Source of the DNA: Gordonia crocea
GTDB taxonomy: Bacteria; Actinomycetota; Actinomycetes; Mycobacteriales; Mycobacteriaceae
Length of the DNA stretch: 64,000 nt
Reading direction: 5' to 3'
Assembly (NCBI RefSeq): GCF_009932435.1
Contig: NZ_BJOU01000002.1
Span: 248,001 to 312,000, forward strand
Below are positions 11,668 to 44,828 of this stretch, piece by piece. Position 1 is the first letter of the stretch. Each line of letters opens with the position of its first letter. The notes beneath the pieces are model-generated. The model saw only the letters and a list, made by a program, of their open reading frames with translations. It did no database searches and was not told the origin of the DNA. The translations under genes were made by a program, and so were the position numbers.

Positions 11668-12918
11668 TTAGTTGTCGCGTACCGGGACTTGGAAGTTCAC
11701 AGCTTTCTCACTGCGCAGCGCCTTGATGAGTTTCGGCGCTATCACCAGCGCGAGGACAACGTCGTGGACTAGGTAGCCCACGCCCACGCCAACGATTCCC
11801 CAATGGGTGACCAGGACGGGGACCACCAGCAACAACCCCCCGGTGCCCAGCAATTGCACCACGGTGGGGAAGCCGATCTTTCCACTCACCCGTGCGATGC
11901 TTGCGTAGAGGTAGCCGACTGTCGAAATCAATTGGCAGCACGCCATGACCAGCAGCAAAGGTGTGCCAGCCGAGAAATACTCCCGCCCATAGAGGTAGAG
12001 GACGATTGGGCCGACGGCTCCGACGAGTAGCGCGCGGACAATGTTGATCAGGACGAGATTGGTGGCCAGGGTCCGGGTTAATTCCCAGCGTGATCGGCTA
12101 GGACGGCGGGAAGCCTCGGCGACGTAAGGGCCGGTGACCAGGGCCATCAACAAAATCGACGCCGCGACGATGGTCCACGAGATGTTGAAGAATGCGGCAT
12201 CGGCGAGCCCACGTTGGCTGACGACAATGAGCGGGATCAGTAGTCCGGGCAGGGTCTGGGCGAGCATCCACGCCATTGCCCAGCCGGTGAAGGCGCCCAG
12301 GGCCTTGCGTTCGGGCAGCTCGGGTGTCGCGCGGCGGTCTTGGCGCAACGGTCCGATACGGGACAGCAAAAGTATCTCGATGACGACAACTGCGCCGAGG
12401 CTGGGAATAACCCAGCTCGACACCAGTGCCGTGGCGGTGCCGATGCCGGCGAACAGTATCGCCAGCACCAGCTTGCTCATCGCGTGGAACGTGTTCTTTG
12501 CGGCAGCCCAGCGACCGCTGCGTAGTCCGACCAGAATTGCGTCCAGCAGGCTAAAGGTGGCAAGCGTCGGCACCGCGAATAGGAAGAGCAATCCGACCAG
12601 ATCGTGACCGTTGGCGAGTTCGCCGGGCCCGACCGCGAGGAAGACGGCGGCGAACAGTCCGGCCAGCGCGGCGGTGATCACCTGGCCGGCGAGGATGAGA
12701 CGTCGCTGCAGCGATCCGGCGACCGGCAGGAACCGTTCGTACAACGGCCCCAGTGAGAGGTTGGCCAGGGATGCCAGCAGCAGCGCCGAATTGATCAGGG
12801 TTGATGCTCGGCCAACCTCGGCTACTCCGTAGTGTCGGGTCGCTGCGCCCCAGTAGGCCACGCCGAGCACGGCGTTGATCCCACTCGCTGCGAGCAGGCT
12901 CAGGGTGTCGATCTGCAT
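11668..12918 (-). CDS. Polysaccharide-type flippase (Wzx/MVF-like), copy 1
   Basis: Polytopic membrane protein of about 416 residues with some 12 hydrophobic segments, resembling Wzx/MurJ-type lipid or oligosaccharide flippases. It is a clear paralogue of the protein at 20344-21669: both share an opening with GRA(S/T)T, LANLSLG or LSNLSLG, and (Y/F)ER after the second helix. ATG12918 is chosen because the upstream in-frame starts would translate through the palindromic operator at 12960-12978. It would move a lipid-linked product, either a glycan or the lipopeptide itself, across the membrane. It is divergent from the importer operon and shares its operator. Confidence 0.75.
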   Translation of the reverse strand: MQIDTLSLLAASGINAVLGVAYWGAATRHYGVAEVGRASTLINSALLLASLANLSLGPLYERFLPVAGSLQRRLILAGQVITAALAGLFAAVFLAVGPGELANGHDLVGLLFLFAVPTLATFSLLDAILVGLRSGRWAAAKNTFHAMSKLVLAILFAGIGTATALVSSWVIPSLGAVVVIEILLLSRIGPLRQDRRATPELPERKALGAFTGWAMAWMLAQTLPGLLIPLIVVSQRGLADAAFFNISWTIVAASILLMALVTGPYVAEASRRPSRSRWELTRTLATNLVLINIVRALLVGAVGPIVLYLYGREYFSAGTPLLLVMACCQLISTVGYLYASIARVSGKIGFPTVVQLLGTGGLLLVVPVLVTHWGIVGVGVGYLVHDVVLALVIAPKLIKALRSEKAVNFQVPVRDN

Positions 12919-12959
12919 GCGTGTCCGCGCCTGTTGTGGCGGGTGCACCGACGACACGG

Positions 12960-12978
12960 ATTCTACCATTTGTAGAAT
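12960..12978. promoter_or_regulatory. BlaI-type operator 1 (flippase / importer operon)
   Basis: Perfect palindrome ATTCTAC-CATTT-GTAGAAT (7-5-7). Each arm contains TAGAAT, usable as a -10 hexamer, so both divergent promoters lie inside the site. It is one of four copies in the cluster (see 34227, 39408 and 41959). Confidence 0.75.
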
Positions 12979-13068
12979 AGTAGCCATGTCTATCGGCCGC
13001 GCTGAAGTGTCGACCAGTCCACACAGCGCAGACGTCACCCGCCGCCGTCGCGATATTGTGGGGTGTCA

Positions 13069-14160
13069 GTGAGCACGCGGACGTCACTTCGACGACGATA
13101 TCCGCTGGTCATGGTGGTTGGGACCGTCCTATTCGTCGGCGCGGCGGTAGCCGCGATTGCCGTTGGGTCGGTCACCGTTCCCCCCGGCGAGGTTGTGCAG
13201 TCACTGGCTTTTCACCTCGGCGGGCTCGTCGCCGACGTTGCCGACAAACTGGGCGTGGCGATTCCGCGTCCCGCTCCGCCGGACAGTGCGGTCAACGACC
13301 TGATCGTCTGGAAGCTACGCGTGCCGCGCACGCTTGCGGCCATCGTGGTTGGGGCGGCCTTGGCCATCGCCGGAGCGGCACTGCAGGCGATGGTGCGAAA
13401 CCCGTTGGCCGACCCGTACGTGCTCGGAGTCTCCTCGGGAGCCTCGCTGGGCGCGGTCCTGGTGATGTCGTCGGCGTCGGCGTTGTGGTTGCGCAACCTG
13501 GGCCTACCAACGGCTGCCTTCATTGGCGCCATGATCGCCTTGCTGATCGTTCTGCTCTTCGCTCATCGGAGTGGCACATTCACCGGATCCCGCATCGTGC
13601 TGGCCGGGGTGGGCGTCGGTCAAGTCGCTGCCGCGGCAACCTCGTTGGTCCAGTTGCACTCAGACCCAGCCGAGATACGCGGCATGCTCTTTTGGATGAT
13701 GGGGAGTGTGGCTGGCGTGGACTCGTTGTCGGTATTGGTGATTCCGGCGGTGGTATCGCTGGGGTGCGTTGCCTTGCTGATGGTTCAGGGGCGCAGCCTC
13801 AACGCAGTCTCGATGGGCGACGATGACGCCGTAGCGCTGGGCGTGTCGGTCAATGCCTTTCGACTCCAGCTCATCGTTGTGGTCGCACTGCTCACCGGAG
13901 TGTCGGTCAGCATTGCCGGCGGAGTCGGATTCGTTGGATTGATGATTCCGCATATCGCGCGCTTCGCGGTCGGGGCGGACTACCGCCGGCTTCTCCCGGC
14001 GGCCGCTTTACTGGGCGCTGCCTTTTTGGTCGCGGTAGACACCGTCGCACGGTCGGTCGACCCGCCGAACGAGTATCCGCTGACCATATTCACCGCTGCG
14101 GTGGGCGGTCCCTTCTTCCTCTGGTTACTCAAACGGAGTCGGGCCGGAGGTGCAGTGTGA
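13069..14160 (+). CDS. FecCD-family ABC importer permease (metallophore/siderophore type)
   Basis: Membrane permease of about 363 residues with the roughly 10-helix FecCD fold. Family signs are WKLRVPRTLAAIVVGAALAIAGAALQ, NPLADPYVLGVSSGASLGA and GFVGLMIPHIAR. Such permeases import iron-siderophore, heme or cobalamin complexes. GTG13069 has GGGG five nt upstream; GTG13063 is also in frame. The ATPase gene overlaps its stop codon, and a FecB-type lipoprotein lies at the far end of the same run of genes (28665-29750). It is transcribed away from operator 1. Its likely cargo is the metal-loaded lipopeptide made by the cluster. Confidence 0.9.
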   Translation: MSTRTSLRRRYPLVMVVGTVLFVGAAVAAIAVGSVTVPPGEVVQSLAFHLGGLVADVADKLGVAIPRPAPPDSAVNDLIVWKLRVPRTLAAIVVGAALAIAGAALQAMVRNPLADPYVLGVSSGASLGAVLVMSSASALWLRNLGLPTAAFIGAMIALLIVLLFAHRSGTFTGSRIVLAGVGVGQVAAAATSLVQLHSDPAEIRGMLFWMMGSVAGVDSLSVLVIPAVVSLGCVALLMVQGRSLNAVSMGDDDAVALGVSVNAFRLQLIVVVALLTGVSVSIAGGVGFVGLMIPHIARFAVGADYRRLLPAAALLGAAFLVAVDTVARSVDPPNEYPLTIFTAAVGGPFFLWLLKRSRAGGAV

Positions 14161-14984
14161 CCAGCGACGACGCGGGCCGTTGGCGCCGCTCGCAACCGGC
14201 GAGGAATCAGCGACCACCCACCGTTGCCACCAGGGCGGTTTCGGTCGATATTGACGGTGTTTCGATCATCGCCGACGTTGATATCGCCATTCCAGCGGGC
14301 AGCCTTACCGCGATCGTCGGTCCAAACGGATCGGGCAAGTCGACTCTGCTGCGGGCGCTCTACCGTGCCTGCCGACCCTCTCGTGGAACTGCCCTGATCG
14401 GCGCTGCGGATGTCTGGCAGATGCCGGTACGTGACAGTGCGCGGCTACGAGCAGTGGTGACGCAGCATCACGGGGAGACGGCCGACTTCACGGTGCGCGA
14501 GATTGTGTCGATGGGGCGCACACCGCACAAGAGACCGTTGGAAGGCGATACCCGCCACGACCGGGACATCGTTGACGCGGCGCTGAACCGGGTAGATATG
14601 GCCGGGTTCGTCGACCGATACTTTCAGGACTTGTCGGGCGGAGAACGGCAGCGAGTGCTGTTGGCGCGGGCGCTAGCCCAACAATCGCCACTGATCATCC
14701 TGGACGAACCGACCAATCATCTCGACGTGCACGCCCAGATTGGCCTATTGGATATTCTCGCCGACCTCGAGGCCACCATCGTCGTCGCGGTCCACGACCT
14801 CAATCATGCATTGGCCTATTCCGACAACGTCGTGGTGATGTGCAACGGGAAGGTGGTCGCCGCCGGGCCGCCTGAGACAGTCATCACCCCGACCCTGCTC
14901 GCCGATGTCTTCCGCATCGAGGCCCGCATTTCGCGCAACCCGCTGACCGGCGACCACTACGTCGTTTACGGGCGCTGCCGGTAA
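14157..14984 (+). CDS. ABC importer ATPase (FecE-like)
   Basis: ATP-binding subunit of about 275 residues driving the FecCD permease. Walker A GPNGSGKST, signature LSGGERQRVLLARA, Walker B LIILDEPTNHLD and the switch His in VAVHDLNHAL are all present, so it should be active. Its GTG start overlaps the permease stop (GTGA), which argues for translational coupling. An N-terminal polar stretch of about 25 residues precedes the first strand. The 161-bp gap that follows (14985-15145) contains no gene or clear terminator. Confidence 0.92.
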   Translation: MTSDDAGRWRRSQPARNQRPPTVATRAVSVDIDGVSIIADVDIAIPAGSLTAIVGPNGSGKSTLLRALYRACRPSRGTALIGAADVWQMPVRDSARLRAVVTQHHGETADFTVREIVSMGRTPHKRPLEGDTRHDRDIVDAALNRVDMAGFVDRYFQDLSGGERQRVLLARALAQQSPLIILDEPTNHLDVHAQIGLLDILADLEATIVVAVHDLNHALAYSDNVVVMCNGKVVAAGPPETVITPTLLADVFRIEARISRNPLTGDHYVVYGRCR

Positions 14985-15991: not shown

Positions 15992-15993
15992 GC

Positions 15994-18309
15994 GTGGCAA
16001 TCCCGATATCGACGGTGATCTGTTGCCACGACTCGCGGCGGTGGGAGGCGATCCAACGTTGCCTGGCGGCGGTGACAGCCCAGCGGCGCGAGGGCGACGA
16101 AGTCATTGTCGTCGTCGACCGAAATCCAGACCTGTATGCCCGCCTGAAGTCAGCCTCGGGTGGGGTCCGAGTTGTGCTCGGAGGTGACACCGGCGGGCTG
16201 TCCGCGGCACGAAACACCGGCCTGCAGAACGCGGCTTCGACGATTGTGGCTTTCGTCGATGACGACGCGGTTCCCGCTGGCGGTTGGCTGGACGCGATCG
16301 CAAAATCCTTCGCAGATCCACAGGTAATGATGGTCGGCGGTGAAATCTTTCCGCAGTGGCCAGGTGGCTCGCGACCGACATGGCTGCCGTTGCCCTTCGA
16401 TTGGGTAGTTGGCTGCGACTATCAGGGAATGCCGCCGGTAGGGGCACCGGTCCGTAACCCAATCGGCGCGAACATGGCGGTGCGCCGAGACCTAGCCATC
16501 GCAGCGGGTGGATTCCATACCGGTTTGGGTCGGGCTGGGGAGAATGCTGCCGGCGCGGAGGAGACCGACCTCGCGATCAGGATGCGTCAGATTTGGCCAG
16601 CAAAAGAAATCATGCGCATCGGCGGCGCATCGGTCCGTCACTCGATCTCTCCGCTGCGGTGCAGCCGCCGCTACTTCATTCGGAGATGCATCGCGGAGGG
16701 ACGTTCGAAAGCGATGCTCGGCCATCGGGGCGGGTATCGCGACTCCCTGTCAGCCGAACGTCGGTATCTGCGCTCAGCACTACCGCGGGCCGTTGCGGCC
16801 GACGTTGTCGGACTTCGTCGCGGGGACCTCAATGGGTTGCAGCGGGCTATCGCGACCATTATCGGGACCGGGGCGGCCGGATTGGGCTGGCTAACCGGGT
16901 TGGTGTCGCGGCCGCGCGGCACCGACGGTGCTTGGGGAATCGGCGCCGAGCCTACCTGCGTGGTCGATGTCGACGGTAGCAGCGGTGTGCCGGTCCGGCC
17001 GATCCCCGAACTGGGTCATCGGGCTGTCGACGCCGTCCACCTTCGGGTTCGTCTCGACGGACGCCAGATCGCCAGCATCCGAGTGCCGATCGGGCCGGCG
17101 ATCCCGGCCAGTACGCAGATCAGGACCGCTGTCGACGGGGCAGTGGCCGGGGTCGGCCGACGCGCATATCCGACCTGGCCGGCAGTTGATCAGACGGTGA
17201 CTGCCGCACTGTGCACCCTCGGGCGCAGTCCCAGGTTGGCCGCCACCGTGCAGGCGATCCTTGCCGAGCAGACGCTGGTTCCCGCGGAAGTTGTTGTCAT
17301 AGACAACGACCCGCGCTCGGGGGCGACGCGCGCCGCGCTGACGGCAGTGGCGGACAACCCGCGGTTGCGAATTGTCGAGGAGCCGCGACGCGGGTTGTCC
17401 TGTGCCCGCAATACTGCCTTGGCGGCGGCTCGCGGCGACATCGTCGTCTTCACCGACGACGACGCGGAACCCGAACCCGACTGGCTGGAACGCCTCGCGG
17501 CCGTCTTTGCCGCCGATACCGATGGTGACGTTACCTGCGTGACGGGGGCGGTCATTCCGGCTGAGCTGGGGCGGGCCATCTTCCGGTGGTTTGAGCGGGC
17601 GGCCCGCTTTGATCGGGGCCTGGACCCGATGGTGTGGCACCCCGGCGTTAGCCGATCACTGGATTGGCTGCGTCGGTGGGAGCCGACAGCCAAGGAAGGG
17701 GCCCGGGGGTTGGCCTATCCGATTGCCGGGAGTGAATTCGGCTCGGGAAACAATATGGCCTTTCGCAGGGCGCGAATCATCGAACTCGGCGGATTCGATG
17801 AATTGCTGGGCGCTGGGACCTCGACGCGCGGCGGGGAAGACCTCGATGCTTTCCGTCGTGTCAACCTCGCTGGTGACGCGATCGTGTATCAGCCAGCGGC
17901 GATCGTACGTCACCACCACCGGGACAATCGCGCGGCATTGCGTCGGCAGTTGTATGGGTACGGCACCGGGATGTCGGCCAGTGTGTGTCGACATTTGGTG
18001 CGGGGGCCCAACGAAGCTGTCGGCGTCGCGCAAGCATTGCCCGGCGGTCTGCGGCTGCTGTTCGATCCGCGGTCGCCGAAGAACGCCGCTAAACGCGAGG
18101 GATATCCCCTCGCGCTGGGGGTCGTGGAGATCGTCGGCTACGCGGCCGGTCCGGCCCACTTGACGCTCTCGGCGCTACGCCGGGCGACCCGGCAGCGTGC
18201 GGCGACAACAAGACATATCGGCTCGGAGCGAGAGTTGCCCGTGTCGATGGACGTGCAGGTTGCAGCGTCTGTTGCCGAGGCCGGAAATGCCGGCTCGGCG
18301 GTGAGGTAA
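15994..18309 (+). CDS. Two-domain glycosyltransferase (tandem GT2 domains)
   Basis: A 771-residue protein with two separate family 2 glycosyltransferase domains. Domain 1 begins at the N terminus (STVICCHDSRRW, then GGLSAARNTGL and VAFVDDDAVP). Domain 2 starts near residue 405 (VTAALCTLGRSP, GLSCARNTALAAARGDIVVFTDDDAEPEPDW). Both keep the DDD nucleotide-sugar/metal motif, so both may be active, for example adding alternating residues. No membrane segment is obvious. It sits inside the importer-NRPS operon, 2 bp after the previous glycosyltransferase. Confidence 0.82.
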   Translation: MAIPISTVICCHDSRRWEAIQRCLAAVTAQRREGDEVIVVVDRNPDLYARLKSASGGVRVVLGGDTGGLSAARNTGLQNAASTIVAFVDDDAVPAGGWLDAIAKSFADPQVMMVGGEIFPQWPGGSRPTWLPLPFDWVVGCDYQGMPPVGAPVRNPIGANMAVRRDLAIAAGGFHTGLGRAGENAAGAEETDLAIRMRQIWPAKEIMRIGGASVRHSISPLRCSRRYFIRRCIAEGRSKAMLGHRGGYRDSLSAERRYLRSALPRAVAADVVGLRRGDLNGLQRAIATIIGTGAAGLGWLTGLVSRPRGTDGAWGIGAEPTCVVDVDGSSGVPVRPIPELGHRAVDAVHLRVRLDGRQIASIRVPIGPAIPASTQIRTAVDGAVAGVGRRAYPTWPAVDQTVTAALCTLGRSPRLAATVQAILAEQTLVPAEVVVIDNDPRSGATRAALTAVADNPRLRIVEEPRRGLSCARNTALAAARGDIVVFTDDDAEPEPDWLERLAAVFAADTDGDVTCVTGAVIPAELGRAIFRWFERAARFDRGLDPMVWHPGVSRSLDWLRRWEPTAKEGARGLAYPIAGSEFGSGNNMAFRRARIIELGGFDELLGAGTSTRGGEDLDAFRRVNLAGDAIVYQPAAIVRHHHRDNRAALRRQLYGYGTGMSASVCRHLVRGPNEAVGVAQALPGGLRLLFDPRSPKNAAKREGYPLALGVVEIVGYAAGPAHLTLSALRRATRQRAATTRHIGSERELPVSMDVQVAASVAEAGNAGSAVR

Positions 18310-18320: not shown

Positions 18321-18986
18321 ATGACGTCCATGGGACGAAGAAGTCGGGGGGCGCTGAGCGTTGCCGCTGCGGTAATGGCCGCTGGAATGCTGGTGGCGGG
18401 CCCGGCCCAGGCGAGGGTAGAGGGCGGCGACTCGGTGGTGGACGGGAAGAAGCGCAAGATCGCGGCCTTAGTGTCAGACACCCGGGTCGAATCGGTGGTA
18501 CCGATCGACTCCAACCCGACGTCGCGACAGTGGCGGTACTCGGGCAAATCGACGTTGCGCATCACCGGCGGGGACGAGGACGAGGATGGCGCGAAGGTGG
18601 AGGATTGGGGCGGCACAGTGACCTTTGGCTTCCTGATCGGTTATCCGGCAACGCTGACCGGGTCGATTGGCGTGAGCTACTCGACCCCCAACATCACCTG
18701 GTGGGTGCCGCTGGAGCCCAGCCAGCAGGAGATCCGGGGACCGTATATCAACTGGAACATGCTTCCCACTGTCACTGGGAACCTCGCAGTCGGATTTGGT
18801 CCCGGAGTCCGGGCAGTAGATGCGACCACCGGCCAAGCCAAAGGGGCCGGGGGCGTGTTGCGGGTCAAGAACTTTCACGGTGCGGTCACCGGGGTACTCG
18901 GGCAGGTGACAATCCAGCCCTATATCCGGGTATGGAGCAATGAAGGCGACACCATCATGGTCTACGGGCGGAAGCATCTGTTGTGA
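18321..18986 (+). CDS. MspA-family outer-membrane porin
   Basis: Secreted beta-barrel porin of about 221 residues. Residues 1-31 are a signal peptide ending PAQA-R. The mature part carries MspA hallmarks: RQWRYSGKSTLRI near the rim, FLIGYPATLTGSIGVSYSTPN for the constriction and barrel strands, and the closing PYIRVWSNEGDTIMVYG. MspA porins form channels in the mycolate outer membrane. ATG18321 follows AGGACAGG; TTG18318 is in frame. The stop codon overlaps the next ATG. A dedicated porin inside an ABC importer/NRPS operon suggests passage of the cluster product or its metal complex. Confidence 0.85.
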   Translation: MTSMGRRSRGALSVAAAVMAAGMLVAGPAQARVEGGDSVVDGKKRKIAALVSDTRVESVVPIDSNPTSRQWRYSGKSTLRITGGDEDEDGAKVEDWGGTVTFGFLIGYPATLTGSIGVSYSTPNITWWVPLEPSQQEIRGPYINWNMLPTVTGNLAVGFGPGVRAVDATTGQAKGAGGVLRVKNFHGAVTGVLGQVTIQPYIRVWSNEGDTIMVYGRKHLL

Positions 18987-28625: not shown

Positions 28626-28664
28626 GACGTTTGTCGGCCGATCGGCCAGAGATGAGGAGTGGTG

Positions 28665-34219: not shown

Positions 34220-34226
34220 CAAGCTG

Positions 34227-34243
34227 TTCTACCATACGTAGAA
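34227..34243. promoter_or_regulatory. BlaI-type operator 2 (carrier-thioesterase unit)
   Basis: TTCTAC-CATAC-GTAGAA, perfect 6-5-6 palindrome and the same sequence family as operator 1. On the minus strand it contains TAGAAC, 6 nt from the GTG start, so a bound repressor would cover the -10 box of the unit. Confidence 0.72.
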
Positions 34244-36581: not shown

Positions 36582-38815
36582 CGGCCTCCCTCCGGTGCCA
36601 ACGTCAATCGCGGGCTGGTCCGCTCGAGCACTGTTGCGTTGGGGCTGCGCCACGTCACTCGGTACATGCCGCTTGTGAGCAGTTGGGTCTCAACGTGGCC
36701 GAAATAGTCGGGTATGGCGCCGTTGATCAGGTGCTCGAAGGACTCGCGGGTCGAAGTGAGCACGATGTAATCAGGGTGCTGGGCGAGCAGACACTCGAAC
36801 GCCGTGCGTCGGCAGGCCGACTGCGTCGGTCCGCGCAGCTCGGTGATTCGCCGAGCGCGCAGGGTGCCCTCGGTGAGCAGCGGTCGGACCGTCGAACCTG
36901 TTGGCGCCTTTGCCAGGACGAAGTCGGCGGCGGCTCGGGCATCGCCGGGCGTGCGTTCGAAGGAGGTGTTCACCCCGCGCGCAGCGGTACCGCTAATCAT
37001 CAGCGCCGACATCAGGACCGTCACCCCGATGGTCGCCATCGTGCCGGGCCGCCGCGCGAGCCCGCCGATAGTCACCGCAGCGCAGGCGGCCAGGAAGGGA
37101 AGTGCGTAGAGGAAGATGCGCAACACCACCTCGCCGCCATAGCTTTGTCCCACCACCAGCGACACAGTTCCGGCAATGAGTGCAGCGGTGGCAGGAGCGA
37201 GGCGCGTGTGGCGAAGGCGGAGCCAGCCGATCGCGGCCAATAGGCAGAGTGCCGCGGACCAGAGGATGCGGAACTGTTGCATGCGTTGGTACTCCGGGTC
37301 GCCCCGGACGCGCGAACCCACTCCCGACTGCAGCGAGCCGCTGGCGTCGCCGAAGCTGTTGAACAGGTCGGTGAGGTGGCCGAGCCACCAGTCGGTCGCG
37401 CCGAAAGCGAACCAGGCAGCGAAAACGATCCCTACCCCCAGCCACAGGGTCCGGAACCGGGTCACCCCCAGAAAGCTCAGCAATGCCAGGCTGACGATCA
37501 ACGCGGCAGGCGTGAGTTGGTGGCTTACCACCATCGCGGCTCCTACTAGCAAGAGTGCTGACTCCATCGCGATGGTTGCCGACGCCGAATCTGAGCCCGC
37601 CCGGCTCGGTGTGCGGACCGTGGGGCTGGCGAATCGCGGCCAGCCTCGGCCGTGCGCGCGGGGGATGGTTGACCGCCGGGCCGTGTCCATCACCACGGCG
37701 ATGACGGTGAGGTAGAAGTAGAACGCGACTGCCTGTGGGGAAAAGTAATCTTGCTGCACCCAGTTGCCGGCAATGAAGATGAATACGGCCAGCCAGCTCA
37801 ACCGGACCGAGGTGGTAATCGCGTTGGCCACGGTGAATACGGGTGCGATCAGCAGGGTCCCGGCCACCAGCGGGAATGGGATGAGGAAACCGGTGGCGTC
37901 GGTCATACCGGCGACGGTGGTGAGCGAAGCGGCGGTGGCGAAGAAGCCGGGCCAGCTGAATCGGGCGTCGATGCCGGTGAGGGAATGTCCTGCGTTGGCG
38001 ATGGCATCGATGAAGCCAACGTGCACATAGCCGGTAGATAGCGGCGCCGACCAATCGGCAATGCCGACATAGAGGGTTATCACCGCGATGAGGCAGACGG
38101 CCGAAGCGGCCAACACGATGACGTCGAGTCGAGGGCGACGCAAGGCGATGACAGCGACGATGACGATGCCGGCCAACGCGGCGAAATACTGCCAGTTCAG
38201 TGCCGAGATCAATCCGGCAGTCGAGACCGAATCGAGGTCGACAACGGCGGTCGAACGCAGCCACAGTCCTAGGCAGGCTGCCAAGGTAAGCATGGCGCAC
38301 AGGCGGAACTGAAGTCTGCCAAGCGTGCGACCGCGAATACTGATGCCGCGATCGTTGGCTTGGCTGAGCGCGCGATTACGACGGCGCGCGACGACGGTGC
38401 GGCTGGCATCGAGGGCTGGCCCGGTCAGCGCCAACCCCACGACGGCGAGGATGGTGACAACCGTTCGGGGCCACCACAACCCGACCGTCATCGTGAGCAT
38501 GGTGAGGGCGATGTAGCTCGATAGGGATAACGCGGGGGCCAGCGAGAACTGCAGGCGCGCGCGGGTCGTGAGCAGAATTGCTGCGGGTGTGCCCGGAACC
38601 ATGAGCACGAAGAGGCAGACGATCAGTGCGCGACCGGGAACGGTGACATTCCACCAGATGAGCAGGGGCACGACGACGGCAAGGAGCGCCGCTATCAGTA
38701 CGACCGCAGAGTTCGGCCCGAGGCGCAGCCCGCTTCGCGAAGCGGACGCTCCTGTTGCGTCGGACGGGGCCTGCTGGTCCGTACCCGACAAAGTGGTGAT
38801 CGACGGCAGTGTCAT
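36578..38815 (-). CDS. Large polytopic membrane protein, GT-C/polymerase-like
   Basis: A 745-residue integral membrane protein with about 14-16 hydrophobic helices, followed by a soluble C-terminal domain of about 120 residues (from PGDARAAADFVLAKAP on). This layout is that of GT-C glycosyltransferases and polysaccharide polymerases, which use lipid-linked sugar donors on the outer face. A loop reading IDARFSWPGFFATAAS is noticeable. No single catalytic motif could be assigned. It overlaps the thioesterase gene upstream and the small membrane protein downstream by 4 bp each. Confidence 0.65.
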   Translation of the reverse strand: MTLPSITTLSGTDQQAPSDATGASASRSGLRLGPNSAVVLIAALLAVVVPLLIWWNVTVPGRALIVCLFVLMVPGTPAAILLTTRARLQFSLAPALSLSSYIALTMLTMTVGLWWPRTVVTILAVVGLALTGPALDASRTVVARRRNRALSQANDRGISIRGRTLGRLQFRLCAMLTLAACLGLWLRSTAVVDLDSVSTAGLISALNWQYFAALAGIVIVAVIALRRPRLDVIVLAASAVCLIAVITLYVGIADWSAPLSTGYVHVGFIDAIANAGHSLTGIDARFSWPGFFATAASLTTVAGMTDATGFLIPFPLVAGTLLIAPVFTVANAITTSVRLSWLAVFIFIAGNWVQQDYFSPQAVAFYFYLTVIAVVMDTARRSTIPRAHGRGWPRFASPTVRTPSRAGSDSASATIAMESALLLVGAAMVVSHQLTPAALIVSLALLSFLGVTRFRTLWLGVGIVFAAWFAFGATDWWLGHLTDLFNSFGDASGSLQSGVGSRVRGDPEYQRMQQFRILWSAALCLLAAIGWLRLRHTRLAPATAALIAGTVSLVVGQSYGGEVVLRIFLYALPFLAACAAVTIGGLARRPGTMATIGVTVLMSALMISGTAARGVNTSFERTPGDARAAADFVLAKAPTGSTVRPLLTEGTLRARRITELRGPTQSACRRTAFECLLAQHPDYIVLTSTRESFEHLINGAIPDYFGHVETQLLTSGMYRVTWRSPNATVLERTSPRLTLAPEGGR

Positions 38816-39372
38816 TCCGGGATGTTCTTCGCTTCAGCGTCGGCGCGGGGACTGTCAGTCAGCGCGACCTCTATTGATCCGGTCGCGATTCGTCCAGTGG
38901 GATCGGTCAGTCCGACGGTGGTGTCGATGAGCAACGTTCGCCGCTTGATGAGTCGATCACTGATCCGTTCGATGGTTAGTGACCCGTGCAAGCTGCGGGC
39001 ATCAAGCGGCTCCGCAATCGACGTCGTCGCGTGGTGAATGACGACGTTGGGCAGTTGTCGTTGCCAGAAGTCATCGAGCGTCCAGGACGCCAGGGCGGGA
39101 TGTAGGCGATCGGCGATGATCGTCGCCAGGGTCCCGTACAGCATCTGGTTGTAGCAGATGAGGAATTCGACTGGCGAGAGGAGAGGCGGGCCTTCTCGTC
39201 CCACTGCTTCTGTCAGGGCCAGTGACGCTCGCGCATGGATCGTTCCGGCGGCATCGCCGTTCACCTGTAGCTGCTGGAGGAATCGACACCCGGTCGCGGC
39301 GTAGGGTGCGGTGGCCCGGGTGATCAACTCTCGTCGATCGTCGGCCTGAGGTGTCACTTCGGCGTCGCTCAC
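38812..39372 (-). CDS. FcoT/ScoD-family thioesterase, copy 2
   Basis: A hot-dog-type protein of about 186 residues paralogous to the one at 42999-43547. The shared core is 'EF(L/V)I(C/S)YNQ(M/L)xY' followed by 'W(T)(L/M)xD(F/Y)W(Q/R)RQLPNV(V/L)I'. FcoT (Rv0098) and ScoD act on carrier-bound or CoA-bound long chains; in INLP synthesis ScoD is tied to the addition of glycine to an unsaturated acyl chain. No ATG is available; GTG39372 is the first in-frame start after the operator, and GTG39357 is possible. It opens the unit 39372 to 34244 and is divergent from blaI across operator 3. Confidence 0.75.
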   Translation of the reverse strand: MSDAEVTPQADDRRELITRATAPYAATGCRFLQQLQVNGDAAGTIHARASLALTEAVGREGPPLLSPVEFLICYNQMLYGTLATIIADRLHPALASWTLDDFWQRQLPNVVIHHATTSIAEPLDARSLHGSLTIERISDRLIKRRTLLIDTTVGLTDPTGRIATGSIEVALTDSPRADAEAKNIPE

Positions 39373-39407: not shown

Positions 39408-39426
39408 GCTCTACGAATAGTAGAAT
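39408..39426. promoter_or_regulatory. BlaI-type operator 3 (thioesterase unit / blaI)
   Basis: GCTCTAC-GAATA-GTAGAAT. The inner arms TCTAC and GTAGA match perfectly and the outer two positions of the left arm differ. TAGAAT (39421-39426) can serve as the -10 for the blaI gene, so the site fits autoregulation plus control of the divergent unit. Confidence 0.65.
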
Positions 39427-39492: not shown

Positions 39493-39858
39493 GTGAGTAC
39501 GCGAGCCCGCGGTGAGTTGGAGGCATCGGTGCTGAGAATCATGTGGAATGCTGGCGACCCGGTGACCGCGAAGGAGATTCGCTCTCGCTTCTCCAAGCCG
39601 GTGCCTGCCCATACGACCCTGCTCACCGCACTCGACCGGCTCGAAGCCAAGGGAACGGTGGTTCGAGTCGGCACCGCATTGCGGGGTATCCGGTTTGCGC
39701 CGACGATGTCGGAGTCGGAGTACGTCGGGCGTCGAATGTCGGCCAACCTCGATGACAGTGCTGATCGCCGAGCGGCACTTCTCCGATTCGCCGGTTCGCT
39801 CACCGGTGACGATGTCGCCTACCTGCGAGAGGCACTCGATCGAGCCGACCGGGCCTGA
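39493..39858 (+). CDS. BlaI/MecI/CopY-family winged-helix repressor
   Basis: A 121-residue repressor with the BlaI winged helix: RGELEASVLRIMWNAGDPVTAKEIRSRF, then TTLLTALDRLEAKGTVVRV (recognition helix and wing), and a short dimerisation tail. BlaI proteins bind palindromes with TACA/TGTA-like arms and are cleaved after the M56 partner senses a signal. GTG39493 has AGAGGA upstream; TTG39490 is in frame. The gene overlaps nothing, and the M56 gene follows 6 bp later. It is the best candidate to bind the four ATTCTAC-type operators in this cluster. Confidence 0.88.
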   Translation: MSTRARGELEASVLRIMWNAGDPVTAKEIRSRFSKPVPAHTTLLTALDRLEAKGTVVRVGTALRGIRFAPTMSESEYVGRRMSANLDDSADRRAALLRFAGSLTGDDVAYLREALDRADRA

Positions 39859-39864
39859 CGAAAG

Positions 39865-40644
39865 GTGGCAGTCGGCATTCTGGTGGCCTTGGTGGCGGCG
39901 GCGTTGTTGATACCGGCGATCGGGTCCGCCTGGCTTGGCACGGCTCAGTGGCAGTTCGCCCATCCGCGGGCTGGCCTGGCCTGTTGGCTGGCGGTCCACG
40001 CGGCGGCGGCGACCGCGCTCGCCGCAGCCGTCGCCATGACGGCGGTCCATGCGGCATCAGGCGCCGTCGGCGGCTCGGTGACCCCCTGGTTGTTTGTCGG
40101 CGTCTGTGTCGGCCTGACGCTGTGGATGTGGCAGCGTTCGGATGTCCAGTTCGAGGCGATCCGTGACGAGCGGGAGCGGTTCACCGCGGTCGCTCAGACC
40201 GCCGGGGTGACTATCGGCGAGTACCGCGACGTCCCGGTTCGCTCTATTCCTGGCGAGCGGCTACTAGTACTGGCCATCCCGGGACGTCATCGGATCATCG
40301 TCGTTTCCCAGGCGGCCAACCGAGCGTTGTCGGCGGCGCAACTGACAGCCGCGGTGGCCCATGAACGGGCGCATTTGCATGGACGCCACGACCTTGTGCT
40401 GCGATTCGCCGACTTTCAGCGGCGCTGGCTGCCCGGCCCGCTCGGGGGTGCCGCGTTGAGACGGGCGACGGCGATCCTGATCGAGTTGATCGCCGACGAT
40501 CGGGCTGCGCGGGAGAGTGGCGCCCCAGCGCTAGCGGGCGCGCTGACGCTCATTGGTGTTCGGGAAGGCGACCAGTCCATGATCCTGCGGGCACAGCGAC
40601 TGCAGGATCCGTGCGGTGCGGGGTTGCTGAAGCACCAAGAATGA
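39865..40644 (+). CDS. M56-family membrane metalloprotease (BlaR1-like, no sensor domain)
   Basis: A 259-residue membrane protein with about three N-terminal hydrophobic segments (near 3-22, 33-56 and 69-85) and a zinc-protease motif HERAH in VAHERAHLHGRHD; a later Glu in LIELIADDRAA can complete the site. In BlaR1 and MecR1 the same protease inactivates BlaI, but those proteins also carry an outside penicillin-binding sensor domain, which is absent here. The stimulus is therefore not a beta-lactam bound by this protein; metal starvation or another signal is an inference. The last 95 bp overlap the convergent dehydrogenase gene. Confidence 0.83.
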   Translation: MAVGILVALVAAALLIPAIGSAWLGTAQWQFAHPRAGLACWLAVHAAAATALAAAVAMTAVHAASGAVGGSVTPWLFVGVCVGLTLWMWQRSDVQFEAIRDERERFTAVAQTAGVTIGEYRDVPVRSIPGERLLVLAIPGRHRIIVVSQAANRALSAAQLTAAVAHERAHLHGRHDLVLRFADFQRRWLPGPLGGAALRRATAILIELIADDRAARESGAPALAGALTLIGVREGDQSMILRAQRLQDPCGAGLLKHQE

Positions 40645-41935
40645 TGCACTCCCAGCCCGCGGCACGCCATCGATCCAACTCGGGGCGGGAGGCGACGGTG
40701 AGCAGACGCCGAGCCCCGACGACGTCGCCGAGAGCTTCGGGGGTGACGCCAGTGAGGCGGTGTGAACCGAGAAGGAGGACGAGCTGTGCGCCCGCGCACG
40801 CGGCCGAGACGGTCGGTTCCAGCGCGGCGCGACAGCTGGGCACCCGCTGGGCGGTCACGTACGGGTCGTAGACGCGGACCTCCCAACCGAGGTCGACGAG
40901 TTGGTTGACGACGTCGACGATCGGTGCTTCGCGCAGGTCGTCGGTGTCAGCCTTGAAGGCGATGCCCAGGACGGCGATTGGTCCCTGCGGCGTCGGGCCC
41001 AGCACCGATGCCGCGCGCGCCACAGCGTGGTCGCGACGCGCACTGTTGGTCGCCTGAGCTGCCTGCAGCATTCCCGCCAATGAGTACGCGCCCGCCTCAT
41101 GAGCGACTGAGATTAGTGCGCGTACATCCTTGGGCAGACAGCCGCCACCGTAGCCAATGCCTGAATCCAAGTGGCCCCGGCCAATTCGCGGATCGGCGCC
41201 GAGGGCGTCGGACACCATGGTGACATCGGCACCGTTCTGCTCGCACAGCTCGGCAATGGCGTTGATGTAGGAGATTTTCAGGGCCAAGTAGGCGTTGGCA
41301 GCCTGCTTCACTAGTTCGGCCGTACGGTAATCGGTGACGAAGAATGATCTCCTCGTGGCGAGGCCGTACAGGGCGCGAAGTCGTTGTTCGGAACTGACGT
41401 CCTGCGGGTGTAGGCCCAGGACCACTCGGTCGGGGGAAAGGCAATCGGCGACTGCGGATCCCTCGCGCAAGAATTCGGGATTCCACACGAGCTCGGGCTC
41501 AGTGCCTGGGGGCGCGTTCCGGCGGATCATGCTCCGCAGCCGCTCCGCGGTTCCCGGTGGTGCGGTGGACTTGCCGACTACGAGCCCCCGCGGACGTAGA
41601 TGGGGTGCCAGCGCGGCGGTGGCGGCAGTCAACTGGTCGGTGTCGGCACGGTGACCGTCGCTTGACGATGGCGTACCAACGGCAAGGAAGTGAATGTCGG
41701 CACGGCTGCCGGCGACAGCGGCATCGGTACTGAAATGCAGTCTGCCCGCCGCCAGCTGTTCGGTGATGAGCGCGTCAAGGCCAGGTTCAAAAAACGGTGC
41801 CCGCCCGTCTCGCAGGTTCTGGACACGGTCGGGGTCGGTATCTACGCCGATCACATCGTGACCCAGGGCGGCGAAACATGCTGCCTGGGTGGCGCCCAGG
41901 CGCCCGAGGCCGATGACACTGATCGACGCTTTCAT
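40550..41935 (-). CDS. UDP-glucose/GDP-mannose dehydrogenase family protein
   Basis: A 461-residue NAD-dependent dehydrogenase that oxidises a nucleotide sugar twice to the uronic acid. Visible are the Rossmann GLGRLG, the central domain GKSTAPPGTAERL and WNPEFLREGSAV, the catalytic Cys in GYGGGCLPKD and the C-terminal binding motif AFKADTDDLREAP. The most common product in this family is UDP-glucuronate. RBS GAGAGGA precedes ATG41935. It is divergent from the isonitrile synthase gene and shares operator 4, which ties sugar supply to lipopeptide synthesis. Confidence 0.9.
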   Translation of the reverse strand: MKASISVIGLGRLGATQAACFAALGHDVIGVDTDPDRVQNLRDGRAPFFEPGLDALITEQLAAGRLHFSTDAAVAGSRADIHFLAVGTPSSSDGHRADTDQLTAATAALAPHLRPRGLVVGKSTAPPGTAERLRSMIRRNAPPGTEPELVWNPEFLREGSAVADCLSPDRVVLGLHPQDVSSEQRLRALYGLATRRSFFVTDYRTAELVKQAANAYLALKISYINAIAELCEQNGADVTMVSDALGADPRIGRGHLDSGIGYGGGCLPKDVRALISVAHEAGAYSLAGMLQAAQATNSARRDHAVARAASVLGPTPQGPIAVLGIAFKADTDDLREAPIVDVVNQLVDLGWEVRVYDPYVTAQRVPSCRAALEPTVSAACAGAQLVLLLGSHRLTGVTPEALGDVVGARRLLTVASRPELDRWRAAGWECIILGASATPHRTDPAVAVPAGSWTGRLPEHQ

Positions 41936-41958
41936 CTAGGTCCTCTCCACCGAGTCTA

Positions 41959-41977
41959 CTTCTACAACACATAGAAT
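41959..41977. promoter_or_regulatory. BlaI-type operator 4 (dehydrogenase / isonitrile synthase)
   Basis: CTTCTAC-AACAC-ATAGAAT: left arm TTCTAC, right arm ATAGAA, one mismatch in six pairs. TAGAAT at 41972-41977 can act as the -10 of the plus-strand unit, and TAGACT (41954-41959, minus strand) as that of the dehydrogenase gene. The rest of the 178-bp gap has no other feature. Confidence 0.65.
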
Positions 41978-42113
41978 AGTGGACGGTTGTTGCCGTAAGA
42001 CGTCGGTAGCCTTGGCAAGATTTGTCCGACCTGATGGGAACTTCTTGGACAGCTGCGCGGACTACTATCAGGACGGAGTAGTGCGTGAACGGCCTCAAGG
42101 TAGGAAAAGTCAG

Positions 42114-42995
42114 ATGAAGATGGGCGCCCCGACGGCGGGTCGGCGTGGATTCGTAGTGGAGGGCTTTGATCACACGTCGGCGACCGAGGCCGAGATCAGT
42201 GAGATCAGGGATCGGATTTACCAGGACAAGGTCGTTGTCCTGAAGAATCAACAAATTGACGCCGCCGGCTTGGTCCAACTAGGCGCACGGTTCGGGGAGC
42301 TGGTCGGGTACTACGAGCCGATCTATCAACATCCGACTGAGCCGTTGGTATTCGTGTCGTCGAACGTGCTGCATGGCGGGAAGCAAGTTGGCGTTCCCAA
42401 GACGGGTGCTTTCTGGCACGCGGACTACCAGTTCATGCCCCAGCCGTTCGCGTTCACGGTGTTCTATCCGCAACGCCTTCCCGGGCAGGGGCGGGGCACC
42501 TACTTCATCGACATGGCGCAGGCCTACGCGGGATTGAGCGCAGACCTGCAGAACTTGCTCGACGGTGCGATCGCCCATCACAGCGTTCGTCGCTACATCA
42601 AGATCCGCCCGGAGGATGTGTATAAGCCGCTGGGCCAGCTGATCGATTCGGTGGAAGAGAAGCTGCCACCGCAATCGTTCCCCGCAGTCTTCACCCACCC
42701 GGTGACTGGGGAAAGACAGCTCTATGTCTCTGAGGCCTTTACCTTCAAGATCACTGACGCCGACGGCAATGACCTCGGGAGCGAGCTGCTGCGGCGGGTA
42801 TTAGAGGAATCAGGACAGTTAGACCCGACCTTCGAGCATCCCAATATCTTCCTCAACACCTATGAACTCGGCGATATTGTGCTGTGGGACAACCGGACGT
42901 TGATCCACCGCGCCCTGCACAACCCTTCCAACAGTCCCGTCGAGTCGTACCGGGTGACCGCCCTCGACGGGCTCCCGCTTTATCAGATGGAGTAG
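42114..42995 (+). CDS. Isonitrile synthase, non-heme Fe(II)/2-oxoglutarate oxygenase (ScoE/Rv0097-like)
   Basis: A 293-residue TauD-fold oxygenase. ScoE-type enzymes convert a 3-(carboxymethylamino) fatty acid into a 3-isocyano acid. The facial triad is His102, Asp104 (FWHADYQ) and His265 (TLIHRAL). The special ScoE residues all appear to be kept with a constant offset of 30: Tyr66, Tyr67, Tyr71 (GYYEPIY), Lys163 (RRYIKIRP), His269 and Arg280, matching ScoE Tyr96, Tyr97, Tyr101, Lys193, His299 and Arg310 as I recall them. ATG42114 is preferred for its site TAGGAAAAG; longer in-frame starts exist back to 41979 but run through a non-conserved region. It is first in the unit 42114 to 44828. Confidence 0.92.
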   Translation: MKMGAPTAGRRGFVVEGFDHTSATEAEISEIRDRIYQDKVVVLKNQQIDAAGLVQLGARFGELVGYYEPIYQHPTEPLVFVSSNVLHGGKQVGVPKTGAFWHADYQFMPQPFAFTVFYPQRLPGQGRGTYFIDMAQAYAGLSADLQNLLDGAIAHHSVRRYIKIRPEDVYKPLGQLIDSVEEKLPPQSFPAVFTHPVTGERQLYVSEAFTFKITDADGNDLGSELLRRVLEESGQLDPTFEHPNIFLNTYELGDIVLWDNRTLIHRALHNPSNSPVESYRVTALDGLPLYQME

Positions 42996-42998
42996 AGA

Positions 42999-43547
42999 TT
43001 GGAGTCGACGGACACCAGCGCGACGCCGATCGTCGTCGAACCGGGTCTCTTGGCGCAGGCGATGAGGCCGTACTCGTCGAAGAAGGCAGTTTACCTGCGC
43101 AGCGCGACCGTTGCTGCCGAGAACCGCGGGGTTATCGCGAGCGGGAACTTCAGTATCGAGGAGTCGTGCTACATCGATGACACCGGGCATTTCAATGCGG
43201 CCGAGTTCGTCATTTCCTACAACCAGCTCGCCTACGTTGCCCTCGCTCACGTCGTCCGAGACTCATTGCTACCCGAGTTCGCCGGGTGGACGATGGCGGA
43301 CTACTGGCGTCGGCAATTGCCGAATGTCTTGATCACAGAGCTGAGTAGTAGGTACCGCAGGCCGATCAACCCTCGCGGATTCTCCGGCGAGCTGCGCATC
43401 CTCGCCGCGGAGTGGGCAGGGCGGTCTCGTCCTTACCTTCGGCTCGACACCACGGTTGCTTTCCGCGACGACGGTGGTGGCAGCGCATCGGGTGCGGTGG
43501 TCCTTGCCGTCACCGACCCACCGACTATGGACCGAGGAGACGGGTAG
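42999..43547 (+). CDS. FcoT/ScoD-family thioesterase, copy 1
   Basis: A 182-residue single hot-dog-domain protein closely resembling FcoT (Rv0098): YSSKKAVYLRSA, GNFSIEESCYIDDTGHFNAAEFVISYNQLAY and GWTMADYWRRQLPNVLI. In M. tuberculosis fcoT is also next to the ScoE homologue (Rv0097), so this copy is the syntenic one. It is needed with the ACP and ligase for making the glycine adduct. Start TTG42999 is 3 bp after the oxygenase stop; the next in-frame ATG (43062) would cut the conserved N terminus. Confidence 0.87.
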   Translation: MESTDTSATPIVVEPGLLAQAMRPYSSKKAVYLRSATVAAENRGVIASGNFSIEESCYIDDTGHFNAAEFVISYNQLAYVALAHVVRDSLLPEFAGWTMADYWRRQLPNVLITELSSRYRRPINPRGFSGELRILAAEWAGRSRPYLRLDTTVAFRDDGGGSASGAVVLAVTDPPTMDRGDG

Positions 43548-43550
43548 GAC

Positions 43551-44363
43551 GTGAAGCTAGGCCACCAATTCTCCCGAGCGTTGCTGGGCGGGCTAGTCGC
43601 GGCGATGGCCGGAGCATCCACGATCGGCTGCGGGAACGCTGGCGCGGCCGTATCCGGCGTGCCGGCACCCCGCGGAAACGTACTCGGCTGGCAACACGTC
43701 TACACCGATGATTTCTCCGGAAAGGCTCTCAACCGGGCGCGATGGTCGCGCTACAGCGGCACGCCGGGCGGTGATCCGGCGAGCAGCTGGTCGCCGAGCC
43801 ATGTCCGGGTTGGTGGATCCAAGCTGGTCCTCATGGGCTATCGCGATGGGGGAAGGCTCGTCACCGGAGGCGTGTCCAACTGGCGGAATGCGCAATTGTA
43901 CGGCAAGTGGGAAGTGCGAGCGCGTGCTGATGCCAGCGATGAAGTTACCTTCCACTTCTTGCTCTGGCCACGGAATGAGGTATGGCCACCGGAGATCGAC
44001 TTCGCGGAGAGCTTTGGTGGGGCGCGAACCAAGGTCGATGCCTTCCTGCACTGGCGCGACGCGGCTGGGAAGCGGCAAAAGCGGCAACGAGTGTTGCGTG
44101 GCGACTTCACCAAGTGGAATACCTTCGGGGTGGAATGGACCCCGTCGCTGGTGCGGTACACGATCAACGGGCGCGTGTGGGCGACCGAGACAGGTGGCAT
44201 CGTCCCATCGACGCCGATGTGGCTTGGCCTGCAGGCTCAAGCTGGTGGATGCGCCAAACGAGCACAGTGGGGCGGCAAACGCTGTCCTACCGTGGGTACA
44301 CCGGCTGTGACGAGGGTCGAAATCGATTGGGTCGCGGTGTACCGTCCGGGGCTGGCCCTCTAG
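43551..44363 (+). CDS. GH16-family glycoside hydrolase lipoprotein
   Basis: Secreted protein of 270 residues with a lipobox-like TIGC (Cys near residue 27), then a GH16 concanavalin-like domain: DDFSGKALNRARWS near the start, YGKWEVRARAD, and the catalytic motif EIDFAE (ExDxxE form), with the closing VEIDWVAVYRPG strand. GH16 enzymes cut or transfer beta-1,3/1,4 glucans or galactans. All catalytic acids are present. It starts 3 bp after the thioesterase gene. A glycan-cutting enzyme in the isonitrile-synthase unit again joins glycan handling to this pathway. Confidence 0.85.
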   Translation: MKLGHQFSRALLGGLVAAMAGASTIGCGNAGAAVSGVPAPRGNVLGWQHVYTDDFSGKALNRARWSRYSGTPGGDPASSWSPSHVRVGGSKLVLMGYRDGGRLVTGGVSNWRNAQLYGKWEVRARADASDEVTFHFLLWPRNEVWPPEIDFAESFGGARTKVDAFLHWRDAAGKRQKRQRVLRGDFTKWNTFGVEWTPSLVRYTINGRVWATETGGIVPSTPMWLGLQAQAGGCAKRAQWGGKRCPTVGTPAVTRVEIDWVAVYRPGLAL

Positions 44364-44372
44364 GACCGCTGG

Positions 44373-44828
44373 ATGTTGGAGTTACGGGTAGCCGGAGCAG
44401 CCCATTCGTCAGCGGTGCTGGTCCCGCACCCCGAGGAGGTTGTGCCACACCTGCCGTTGACCACCCCGGTTGCGTGCCTGTCTGCGCGCGTTCGAGCCGA
44501 GGAACTATTGCCGCGACTTGCTGCGGCCACCGACCCCGCGGGTGTGCTCGCCGCGTTGTGCTATACGGGTGTGCCGATAGCCGATGCGCATGTACTCGCT
44601 GCTGCCCTGGCGAGTGCGACGACAGTGATTGAGATCGTCGCACTGGACGACGGGAAACGCCTGCTACCGGGCGCGGTGGGAGTGTTCTGCTCCCCGCGCG
44701 GCGACGTCGTCAGCGTGCCGTCCACCGCGGCCGACGGCGCAGAATGGCTCACTTTGACCCCGGCGACGTCGCGCCGGGTCGGACTCGCGTGTGCCGAACT
44801 GGTTCAGCGCCGGCGCGCGGTGCGCTGA
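44373..44828 (+). CDS. Short EspG-like (ESX secretion-associated) protein
   Basis: A 151-residue protein. The C-terminal third (FCSPRGDVVSVPSTAADGAEWLTLTPATSRRVGLACAELV) resembles the end of EspG proteins, the type VII secretion chaperones for PE/PPE substrates, whose usual length is about 250-300. The N-terminal part is Ala/Val-rich and not recognisable. It may be a reduced EspG, a remnant, or an unrelated small protein. No PE, PPE or ESX gene is in the window, though the M. tuberculosis nrp locus begins with PPE1 (Rv0096). It overlaps the convergent DUF4191 gene by 25 bp and marks the right edge of the cluster. Confidence 0.5.
   Translation: MLELRVAGAAHSSAVLVPHPEEVVPHLPLTTPVACLSARVRAEELLPRLAAATDPAGVLAALCYTGVPIADAHVLAAALASATTVIEIVALDDGKRLLPGAVGVFCSPRGDVVSVPSTAADGAEWLTLTPATSRRVGLACAELVQRRRAVR

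Follow-up and report, generated by a model that had tools for sequence, protein, structure and literature searches.

Gene content of the Gordonia crocea island

The DNA analysed here, referred to as the window, is a 64,000-nucleotide stretch of the Gordonia crocea genome that holds an island of genes for isonitrile formation. Between positions 11,668 and 44,828 it encodes a ScoA-E-type set for an isonitrile lipopeptide (INLP) together with an MspA-type porin, a FecB/CD/E importer, flippases, glycosyltransferases, a UDP-glucose/GDP-mannose dehydrogenase (UGDH), a GH16 protein and a BlaI/M56 pair. Profile matches gene by gene confirmed every gene type named in the original prediction, which had described an INLP-type cluster equipped with a dedicated importer and porin, glycan genes and a regulator. 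The island is wider than the predicted coordinates: genes for CtaG, a zf-HC2 protein, a P-type ATPase resembling CtpB and a SigC-like factor, companions of INLP genes in relatives, lie at 6063-11572, and the GH16 gene ending at 44363 forms the other end. Also overlooked were a ketoacyl synthase-like protein (KAS III), a fusion of acyl carrier protein and thioesterase (ACP-TE), a second ScoD (ScoD2), a PCuAC-family protein, a PF00144 hydrolase and a GT-C membrane transferase of 745 amino acids (aa; GTC745). The GC content is 64.7% over 6063-44828, compared with 66.9% in the upstream and 69.7% in the downstream flank, and, judged by the Mycobacterium tuberculosis order Rv2218-Rv2220, the island appears to interrupt a lipA-DUF4191-RDD-glnA block.

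The island contains two acyl ligases (21711 and 31656), two small acyl carrier proteins (ACPs; 20082 and 23311) and four GT2 genes, one of which encodes a double GT2 protein. One part of this content corresponds to known INLP clusters built around a non-ribosomal peptide synthetase (NRPS), and the other is conserved separately in NRPS-free loci of Leucobacter and Micromonosporaceae. Large parts of the arrangement recur in other genera, which puts it beyond chance. The features are listed below; G1450 and G1457 are Micromonosporaceae genomes, G076 is a Leucobacter genome and G947 a relative of it, G075-G078 are Microbacteriaceae, and G315 and G706 are Nocardia genomes.

6063-8063 (+): CtaG-like protein (Caa3_CtaG), a copper/oxidase neighbour; PF09678, 284 bits; near ScoE in G. 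spumicola, Nocardia and Leucobacter loci
8093-8662 (+): zf-HC2 protein, anti-sigma-like; PF13490; near CtpB/SigC in relatives
8654-10930 (-): heavy-metal P-type ATPase, CtpB-like; PF00122/PF00403; 67% to the G. spumicola copy
11006-11572 (-): SigC-like extracytoplasmic function sigma factor; best PDB match M. tuberculosis SigC 2o7g, 7.5e-32
11668-12918 (-): Wzx1 flippase of the NRPS-free system; no Pfam family; 45% to both Micromonosporaceae copies, 41-42% to Leucobacter-type copies
12961-12977: operator-like palindrome TTCTAC-N5-GTAGAA, between Wzx1 and FecCD
13111-14160 (+): FecCD permease; PF01032; 66-70% in Nocardia and G. spumicola INLP loci
14157-14984 (+): FecE ATPase; PF00005
15098-15991 (+): GT2a; PF00535; 76% to Nocardia G315, 59-63% to Leucobacter, Agrococcus and Micromonosporaceae copies
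15994-18309 (+): double GT2 protein; two PF00535 stretches; 36-51% in ScoE-bearing relatives
18324-18986 (+): MspA-type porin; PF09203; present also in the Nocardia G315 and G706 loci
18983-20068 (+): KAS III (FabH-like); NF006829 above cut-off; Cys/His/Asn motifs
20082-20339 (+): ACP1; PF00550
20344-21669 (+): Wzx2 flippase; 44% to the G315 copy
21711-23264 (+): FadDa, acyl ligase of ScoC type, attributed to the NRPS branch; PF00501; groups with Nocardia/Gordonia INLP ligases
23311-23532 (+): ACP2 (ScoB-like); PF00550
23555-27649 (+): NRPS, C-A-T-R (ScoA-like); PF00668, PF00501, PF00550, PF07993; motifs
27642-28625 (+): GT2c; PF00535; no counterpart in the compared ScoE loci
28659-29750 (+): FecB-like binding lipoprotein; PF01497; 64-72% in INLP loci
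30168-30683 (-): PCuAC-family protein; PF04314, 64 bits; copper ligands of relatives replaced (alignment)
30626-31627 (-): u333, exported membrane-anchored protein; 27-31% in NRPS-free loci; G1450 copy matches PF06030 barely above cut-off
31656-33200 (-): FadDb, acyl ligase attributed to the glycan branch; 60-61% to G076, G077, G947, G1450 and G1457 copies
33197-34222 (-): ACP-TE; PF00550 and PF00975; GHSFG; 37-39% in NRPS-free loci
34227-34243: operator-like palindrome, occupying most of the gap before ACP-TE
34244-35296 (-): GT2d; PF00535; 40-42% in NRPS-free loci
35296-36369 (-): PF00144 serine hydrolase; SxxK, YxN, KSG
36366-36581 (-): u71, small membrane protein; equivalent position in NRPS-free loci
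36578-38815 (-): GTC745, 745-aa GT-C membrane transferase
38812-39372 (-): ScoD2, second FcoT-family protein, diverged; PF10862; YIDDTGH-type loop lost
39409-39425: operator-like palindrome, between ScoD2 and BlaI
39493-39858 (+): BlaI-family repressor; PF03965, 61 bits; 47-51% in G1450, G1457 and G076
39865-40644 (+): M56/M48-like membrane protease, HExxH; Pfam M48 only at E 0.017; 34-36% in G1450, G1457, G947 and G076
40550-41935 (-): UGDH; PF03721; 42-45% in G947, G076 and G077
41960-41976: operator-like palindrome, between UGDH and ScoE
42060-42995 (+): ScoE, isonitrile-forming Fe(II)/2-oxoglutarate enzyme; NF049937 above cut-off; 11/11 positions
42999-43547 (+): ScoD, probable enoyl-ACP glycyltransferase; PF10862; NF049938 below cut-off
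43551-44363 (+): GH16 protein; PF00722; 58% to the G315 copy

At the island edge, 44373-44828 is an EspG-family-like open reading frame that has no counterpart in the compared loci.

The INLP half and its importer

ScoE scored 415 bits against the NCBIfam equivalog NF049937 (cut-off 400), and ScoD matched the equivalog NF049938 at E 1e-51 with 175 bits, below the cut-off of 250; the Leucobacter and Micromonosporaceae ScoD copies likewise fall under it (186-198 bits). The NRPS shows a C-A-T-R architecture and retains the motifs of these domains. All 11 ScoE positions checked, mapped through a gapless PDB alignment, are conserved, four of them being iron-ligand/arginine positions. The other seven are named in PMC7949033, where ScoE is described as acting on the free acid, with the product used by ScoA, B and C.

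FadDa (55-62%) and ACP2 (47-56%) resemble the proteins of INLP loci from G. spumicola and Nocardia. In G. spumicola and in Nocardia G616, G706, G732 and G786, genes for FecB, FecCD, FecE, ScoE, ScoD, FadD, ACP and NRPS occur with SigC, CtpB and CtaG close by, and in G706 MspA adjoins the Fec genes as well. Fec genes are also present in many Streptomyces loci; the importer, which had been predicted to be an extra, therefore belongs to the usual equipment of an INLP cluster, and its combination with INLP genes, SigC, CtpB and CtaG is an ordinary one. ScoE itself is rare in the genus (4/59 Gordonia genomes at E 1e-40). It was found in 25 of the 401 genomes of a family-wide draw (20 over the curated cut-off) and in 25 of 148 Nocardia genomes (18 over it), a set that overlaps the first. 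Three plasmid records carry a distant ScoE (45-54%). The SigC consensus matches three places, all inside genes; a SigC-like protein is itself encoded.

A peptide-synthetase-free system in Leucobacter and Micromonosporaceae

To compare the remaining genes, a matrix of 19 loci was built in which the second module comprised 19 families of the window, ScoD2 not counted. Eighteen of the 19 were found in each of G1450, G1457 and G076, with no match to the NRPS or ACP2 in these NRPS-free loci. The window NRPS was unmatched in all four Microbacteriaceae genomes searched (G075-G078); for G947, G1450 and G1457 its absence applies at the level of the locus (40 kb read in G1450 and G1457).

In G076 and G947 the genes form two runs on one contig. 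The first consists of M56 (preceded by BlaI in G076), UGDH, a DyP-like protein, PCuAC, a CopC-like protein, u333, FadDb, ACP-TE, KAS III and Wzx1. The second holds ScoE, ScoD, GT2a, the double GT2, GTC745, u73, the PF00144 hydrolase, a phosphopantetheinyl transferase (PPTase), GT2d and GH16, with CtpB/CtaG beyond ScoE. YcnI- and CopCD-like genes, named by eye, follow GH16 in G076. The Pfam check covered the PPTase on G076 and DyP and CopC on G1450, the other gene names without numbers having been assigned by eye.

The Micromonosporaceae cases were reached through GTC745 homology alone, not through ScoE. In a protein search with GTC745, two Micromonospora proteins ranked right after one top sequence, and a search of 354 Micromonosporaceae genomes gave four matches at E 1e-80 or better, the best two of which (G1450 and G1457, which carry different genus labels) lie with ScoE and ScoD. 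Both loci encode KAS III-ACP1-ScoE-ScoD, FecCD-FecE, the genes from GT2a to GH16, Wzx1, ACP-TE-FadDb-u333-CopC-PCuAC-DyP, BlaI and M56. Copper-related neighbours are CtpB/CtaG on one side and the YcnI/CopCD-like genes on the other in Leucobacter, and CopC and PCuAC in Micromonosporaceae.

The window unites ScoE, ScoD, FadDb, ACP-TE, GT2a, the double GT2, GTC745, the PF00144 hydrolase, GT2d, GH16, BlaI and M56 in one locus, and since it carries the NRPS it is a hybrid rather than a pure NRPS-free member. The original prediction had named glycan, porin and import genes together without the NRPS, with neither isonitrile nor co-regulation, as evidence that would count against it, and part of this is seen: in Leucobacter and two Micromonosporaceae the glycan genes, with ACP-TE, the second ligase, BlaI/M56 and PCuAC, accompany ScoE and ScoD in NRPS-free loci, and the porin lies outside the shared set. 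No description of the second system was found among the matches listed in the literature searched, a partial coverage without preprints, and the peptide-synthetase-free system is apparently undescribed. The combination seen in the window had been predicted to be new, and a less complete version occurs in Nocardia G315, so it is not unique to the strain.

The two weaker GTC745 matches in Micromonosporaceae, G1454 and G1468, have no ScoE within 40 kb. Their loci contain a cassette of GTC745, GT2, flippase and GH16 with FecCD-type genes, a u333-like protein and a protein of 837-841 aa that matches both FadD and ACP-TE, and may possibly encode acyl-glycan metallophores with another head group.

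Phylogenetic placement of ligases and glycan enzymes

The two ligases of the island fall in different groups. In a 34-row ligase tree, FadDb was placed with five ligases, all from NRPS-free Leucobacter-type and Micromonosporaceae loci (Shimodaira-Hasegawa-like approximate likelihood ratio test (SH-aLRT) 100). FadDa belongs to a separate 12-row group in which eight rows come from loci with an adjacent NRPS and four mycobacterial rows are not clearly so placed.

A tree of GTC745 with 28 rows gave a seven-row group containing the window copy in which all seven lie with ScoE (SH-aLRT 99), against 1/21 of the others (Nocardia G315). The ScoE label requires two changes on this tree compared with a shuffled mean of 7.2, and none of 500 shuffles was as low. 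Here, 'no ScoE' refers to the stretch that was read; in M. sphagni and M. pattaloongensis (G127) a ScoE gene lies elsewhere. Leucobacter rows entered the tree via ScoE or as kin of such a row, and the Micromonosporaceae rows did not. Among the compared loci, the nearest relatives of GTC745, GT2d, the PF00144 hydrolase and u71 are in ScoE-bearing loci. GT2a and GH16 are nearest to Nocardia G315 (SH-aLRT 97 each), where the NRPS set adjoins the glycan set and no reciprocal match was found to FadDb, the PF00144 hydrolase, UGDH, PCuAC, BlaI or M56.

A palindrome shared by both gene sets

Three divergent spacers of the island have the sequence TCTAC-N6-TAGAA in common. The 3.78 Mb genome has four exact copies of this core, all within the island and all intergenic (near 12961, 34227, 39409 and 41960). 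These lie before the Fec-to-FecB run that includes the NRPS and before Wzx1, before ACP-TE-FadDb, in the ScoD2/BlaI gap and in the UGDH/ScoE gap. With one mismatch allowed, the extended motif was observed six times in the window and in none of 100 window shuffles.

The palindrome recurs in relatives that carry BlaI, as shown by scans with the extended motif that allowed two mismatches of twelve. Such sites were intergenic in 6/6 cases in the window (one outside the island, one before CtaG), 3/4 in G1450 (one outside the cluster), 2/2 in G1457, 4/4 in G947 and 1/1 in each of two G076 stretches, whereas 12 ScoE loci without a BlaI match had six sites, none of them intergenic. The short G077 contig had no intergenic two-mismatch site. 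In G1450 and G1457 the sites precede the GT2a run and the ACP-TE run. The weak site before CtaG is at 6039-6055, with two mismatches.

The window encodes BlaI and M56 and carries a shared dyad motif before its operons. Placement of the motif before both gene sets favours co-regulation; both systems are probably co-regulated, and we infer BlaI to be the reader of the palindrome, as well as the direction of regulation. A scan for BlaI-type patterns (TACA-TGTA and similar) returned nothing useful.

Proposed model and alternatives

The reading we favour, with a probability of roughly 0.55, is that two isonitrile systems, a known one and one that is apparently undescribed, have been joined in one island with one isonitrile synthase, and that the isocyano-acid pool feeds both branches. 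By analogy with the chemistry of known homologues, ScoD would add glycine to a short enoyl-ACP and ScoE would convert the freed adduct to a 3-isocyano acid. FadDa would load this acid onto ACP2 for the NRPS, yielding a soluble isonitrile lipopeptide chalkophore that would be recovered via MspA and FecB/CD/E. In the other branch, the ACP domain of ACP-TE would receive this acid from FadDb, and either the thioesterase domain or the PF00144 hydrolase would use it to acylate a lipid-linked glycan that the GT2 proteins and UGDH assemble and Wzx1 flips. Transfer or extension of the glycan by GTC745 would leave the cell surface with an isonitrile glycan that binds copper, and BlaI/M56 would control both branches via the shared palindrome. 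Acyl transfer to the glycan, copper as the ligand and the identity of the product are what we infer from the genes. A more specific proposal, tentative and at somewhat less than even odds, is that the NRPS-free pathway of Leucobacter and Micromonosporaceae acylates a surface glycan with isonitrile as a fixed copper trap, and that in this Gordonia the pathway shares its acid, regulator and uptake with a soluble lipopeptide chalkophore, one building block then giving both a soluble and a surface-bound chalkophore under one copper-responsive BlaI.

Several observations weigh against this model. The second module is not complete everywhere, as FadDb has no match at E 1e-150 in Leucobacter G075 and Agrococcus G078, the latter also lacking GTC745. 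Among more distant relatives of FadDb are ligases from NRPS loci of Streptomyces and Nocardia, which limits the ligase split to the nearest kin, and KAS III shares more identity with copies from Streptomyces INLP loci (up to 54%) than with those of Micromonosporaceae (49%), which makes its module assignment unsure. No close solved relative of ACP-TE was found, and it could simply hydrolyse. GTC745 homologues occur in 54/397 genomes of the order, so such glycan cassettes are widespread, and ScoE was present in 0/18 stretches of 17-20 kb fetched round a GTC745 homologue; when three of these were extended, ScoE appeared only in G315, just beyond. The palindrome was found by comparing spacers and first seen at three of its four sites, so that independent weight comes from the fourth site, from the relatives and from the lack of the core elsewhere in the genome. 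A reversed control pattern gave six genome matches against six real ones, so the number of motifs is not unusual and only their placement informs. By alignment, the window PCuAC has lost His/Met residues kept by the Leucobacter and Micromonosporaceae copies, and ScoD2, left unplaced in the tree on a long branch, does not have the YIDDTGH-type loop kept in most other aligned ScoD rows and is a candidate for a decaying or re-purposed copy. These losses suggest that, after the fusion, some of the second module became dispensable.

That the island is one INLP metallophore cluster, as originally predicted, with glycan genes that glycosylate or protect the lipopeptide and a porin and importer that recapture it, is unlikely. 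The presence of all genes in one island, the shared motif before the operons and the adjacent NRPS and glycan sets of Nocardia G315 would fit such a cluster, but decoration of a peptide was rejected as the role of the glycan genes because these go with isonitrile formation in the NRPS-free loci, where they accompany ScoE and ScoD with their own ligase and ACP-TE. Further, in one comparison of ScoE loci, glycan genes occurred only in those of Leucobacter and G315. It is improbable that the product of the second module is a free isonitrile fatty acid or antibiotic, similar to amycomicin, released by ACP-TE, with the polysaccharide a separate envelope polymer sharing only the regulator. Although hydrolysis by ACP-TE and the commonness of GTC745-type cassettes without ScoE are compatible with this, the ScoE-bearing loci that hold the nearest relatives of GTC745, GT2d, the PF00144 hydrolase and u71 argue against it, as does the single Leucobacter gene run from ScoE and ScoD through the glycosyltransferases to GH16.

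An accidental juxtaposition of chalkophore and polysaccharide clusters that work independently is very improbable. The island-like GC content and the separate contigs on which M. sphagni carries ScoE and a glycan cassette would be consistent with it; against it stand recurrence in three families, the shared motif and the 18/19 families common to NRPS-free loci that include ScoE and ScoD. Chance neighbourhood was rejected on the locus matrix, the placement of the motif and the GTC745 tree.

Relation to known isonitrile systems

Bacteria are known to make glycosylated isonitriles and isonitrile fatty acids, such as rhabduscin, byelyankacin and amycomicin; these are tyrosine-derived glycosides or free fatty acids and are not known to involve polysaccharide machinery. 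The window shares all ScoA-E gene types with the INLP clusters of Streptomyces (sco) and M. tuberculosis (Rv0096-Rv0101), and differs from them by the second ligase, ACP-TE, BlaI/M56 and glycan genes. Induction of SigC in M. tuberculosis raises the INLP cluster and ctpB (PMC7924339), and SigC- and CtpB-like genes are adjacent in the window. No PPE-family match was found among the island proteins scanned, in contrast to the M. tuberculosis cluster; in the discussion of PMC9600254, a transport role for PPE1 in the isonitrile chalkophore system is offered only as speculation. The compact G. spumicola and Nocardia loci have the same FecB/CD/E, ScoE, ScoD, FadD, ACP, NRPS, SigC, CtpB and CtaG gene types but no glycan cassette, BlaI match or intergenic palindrome. 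Besides the second-module families, the NRPS-free loci share the palindrome and some of the gene order with the window; they have no NRPS, ACP2 or MspA and add CopC and a DyP peroxidase (by Pfam in G1450, by eye in Leucobacter). The nearest parallel to a divided acid pool is fungal: according to PMC9381783, one copper-starvation isocyanide feeds two pathways, one of which yields acylated sugar alcohols, the fumicicolins, although the isocyanide is made from valine by CrmA and the acceptor is a small sugar alcohol rather than a bacterial glycan.

Isonitrile chalkophores matter in mycobacterial copper starvation. A conserved system that couples isonitrile synthesis to glycan assembly, equipped with a ligase, candidate acyltransferases and a regulator of its own, would extend the metal-binding surface molecules by a new class. 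It would also mean that ScoE chemistry can operate apart from peptide synthetases, and Leucobacter and Micromonospora would serve as hosts in which to test it.

Other ScoE loci

A further isonitrile arrangement is present in two other Gordonia genomes (loci L028-L031 of G020 and G042), in which ACP-TE, ScoE, ScoD, FadD and a flippase lie beside two large LuxR/MalT-like genes (named by eye) with no adjacent mono-modular NRPS. In Leucobacter sp. 7(1), a transposase-like gene and Fec-like genes come after a second ScoE-ScoD-GT2a run (L056). The ScoD and GT2a proteins of L056 are identical to those of a locus in Agrococcus casei (L061), and this identity suggests a recent transfer.

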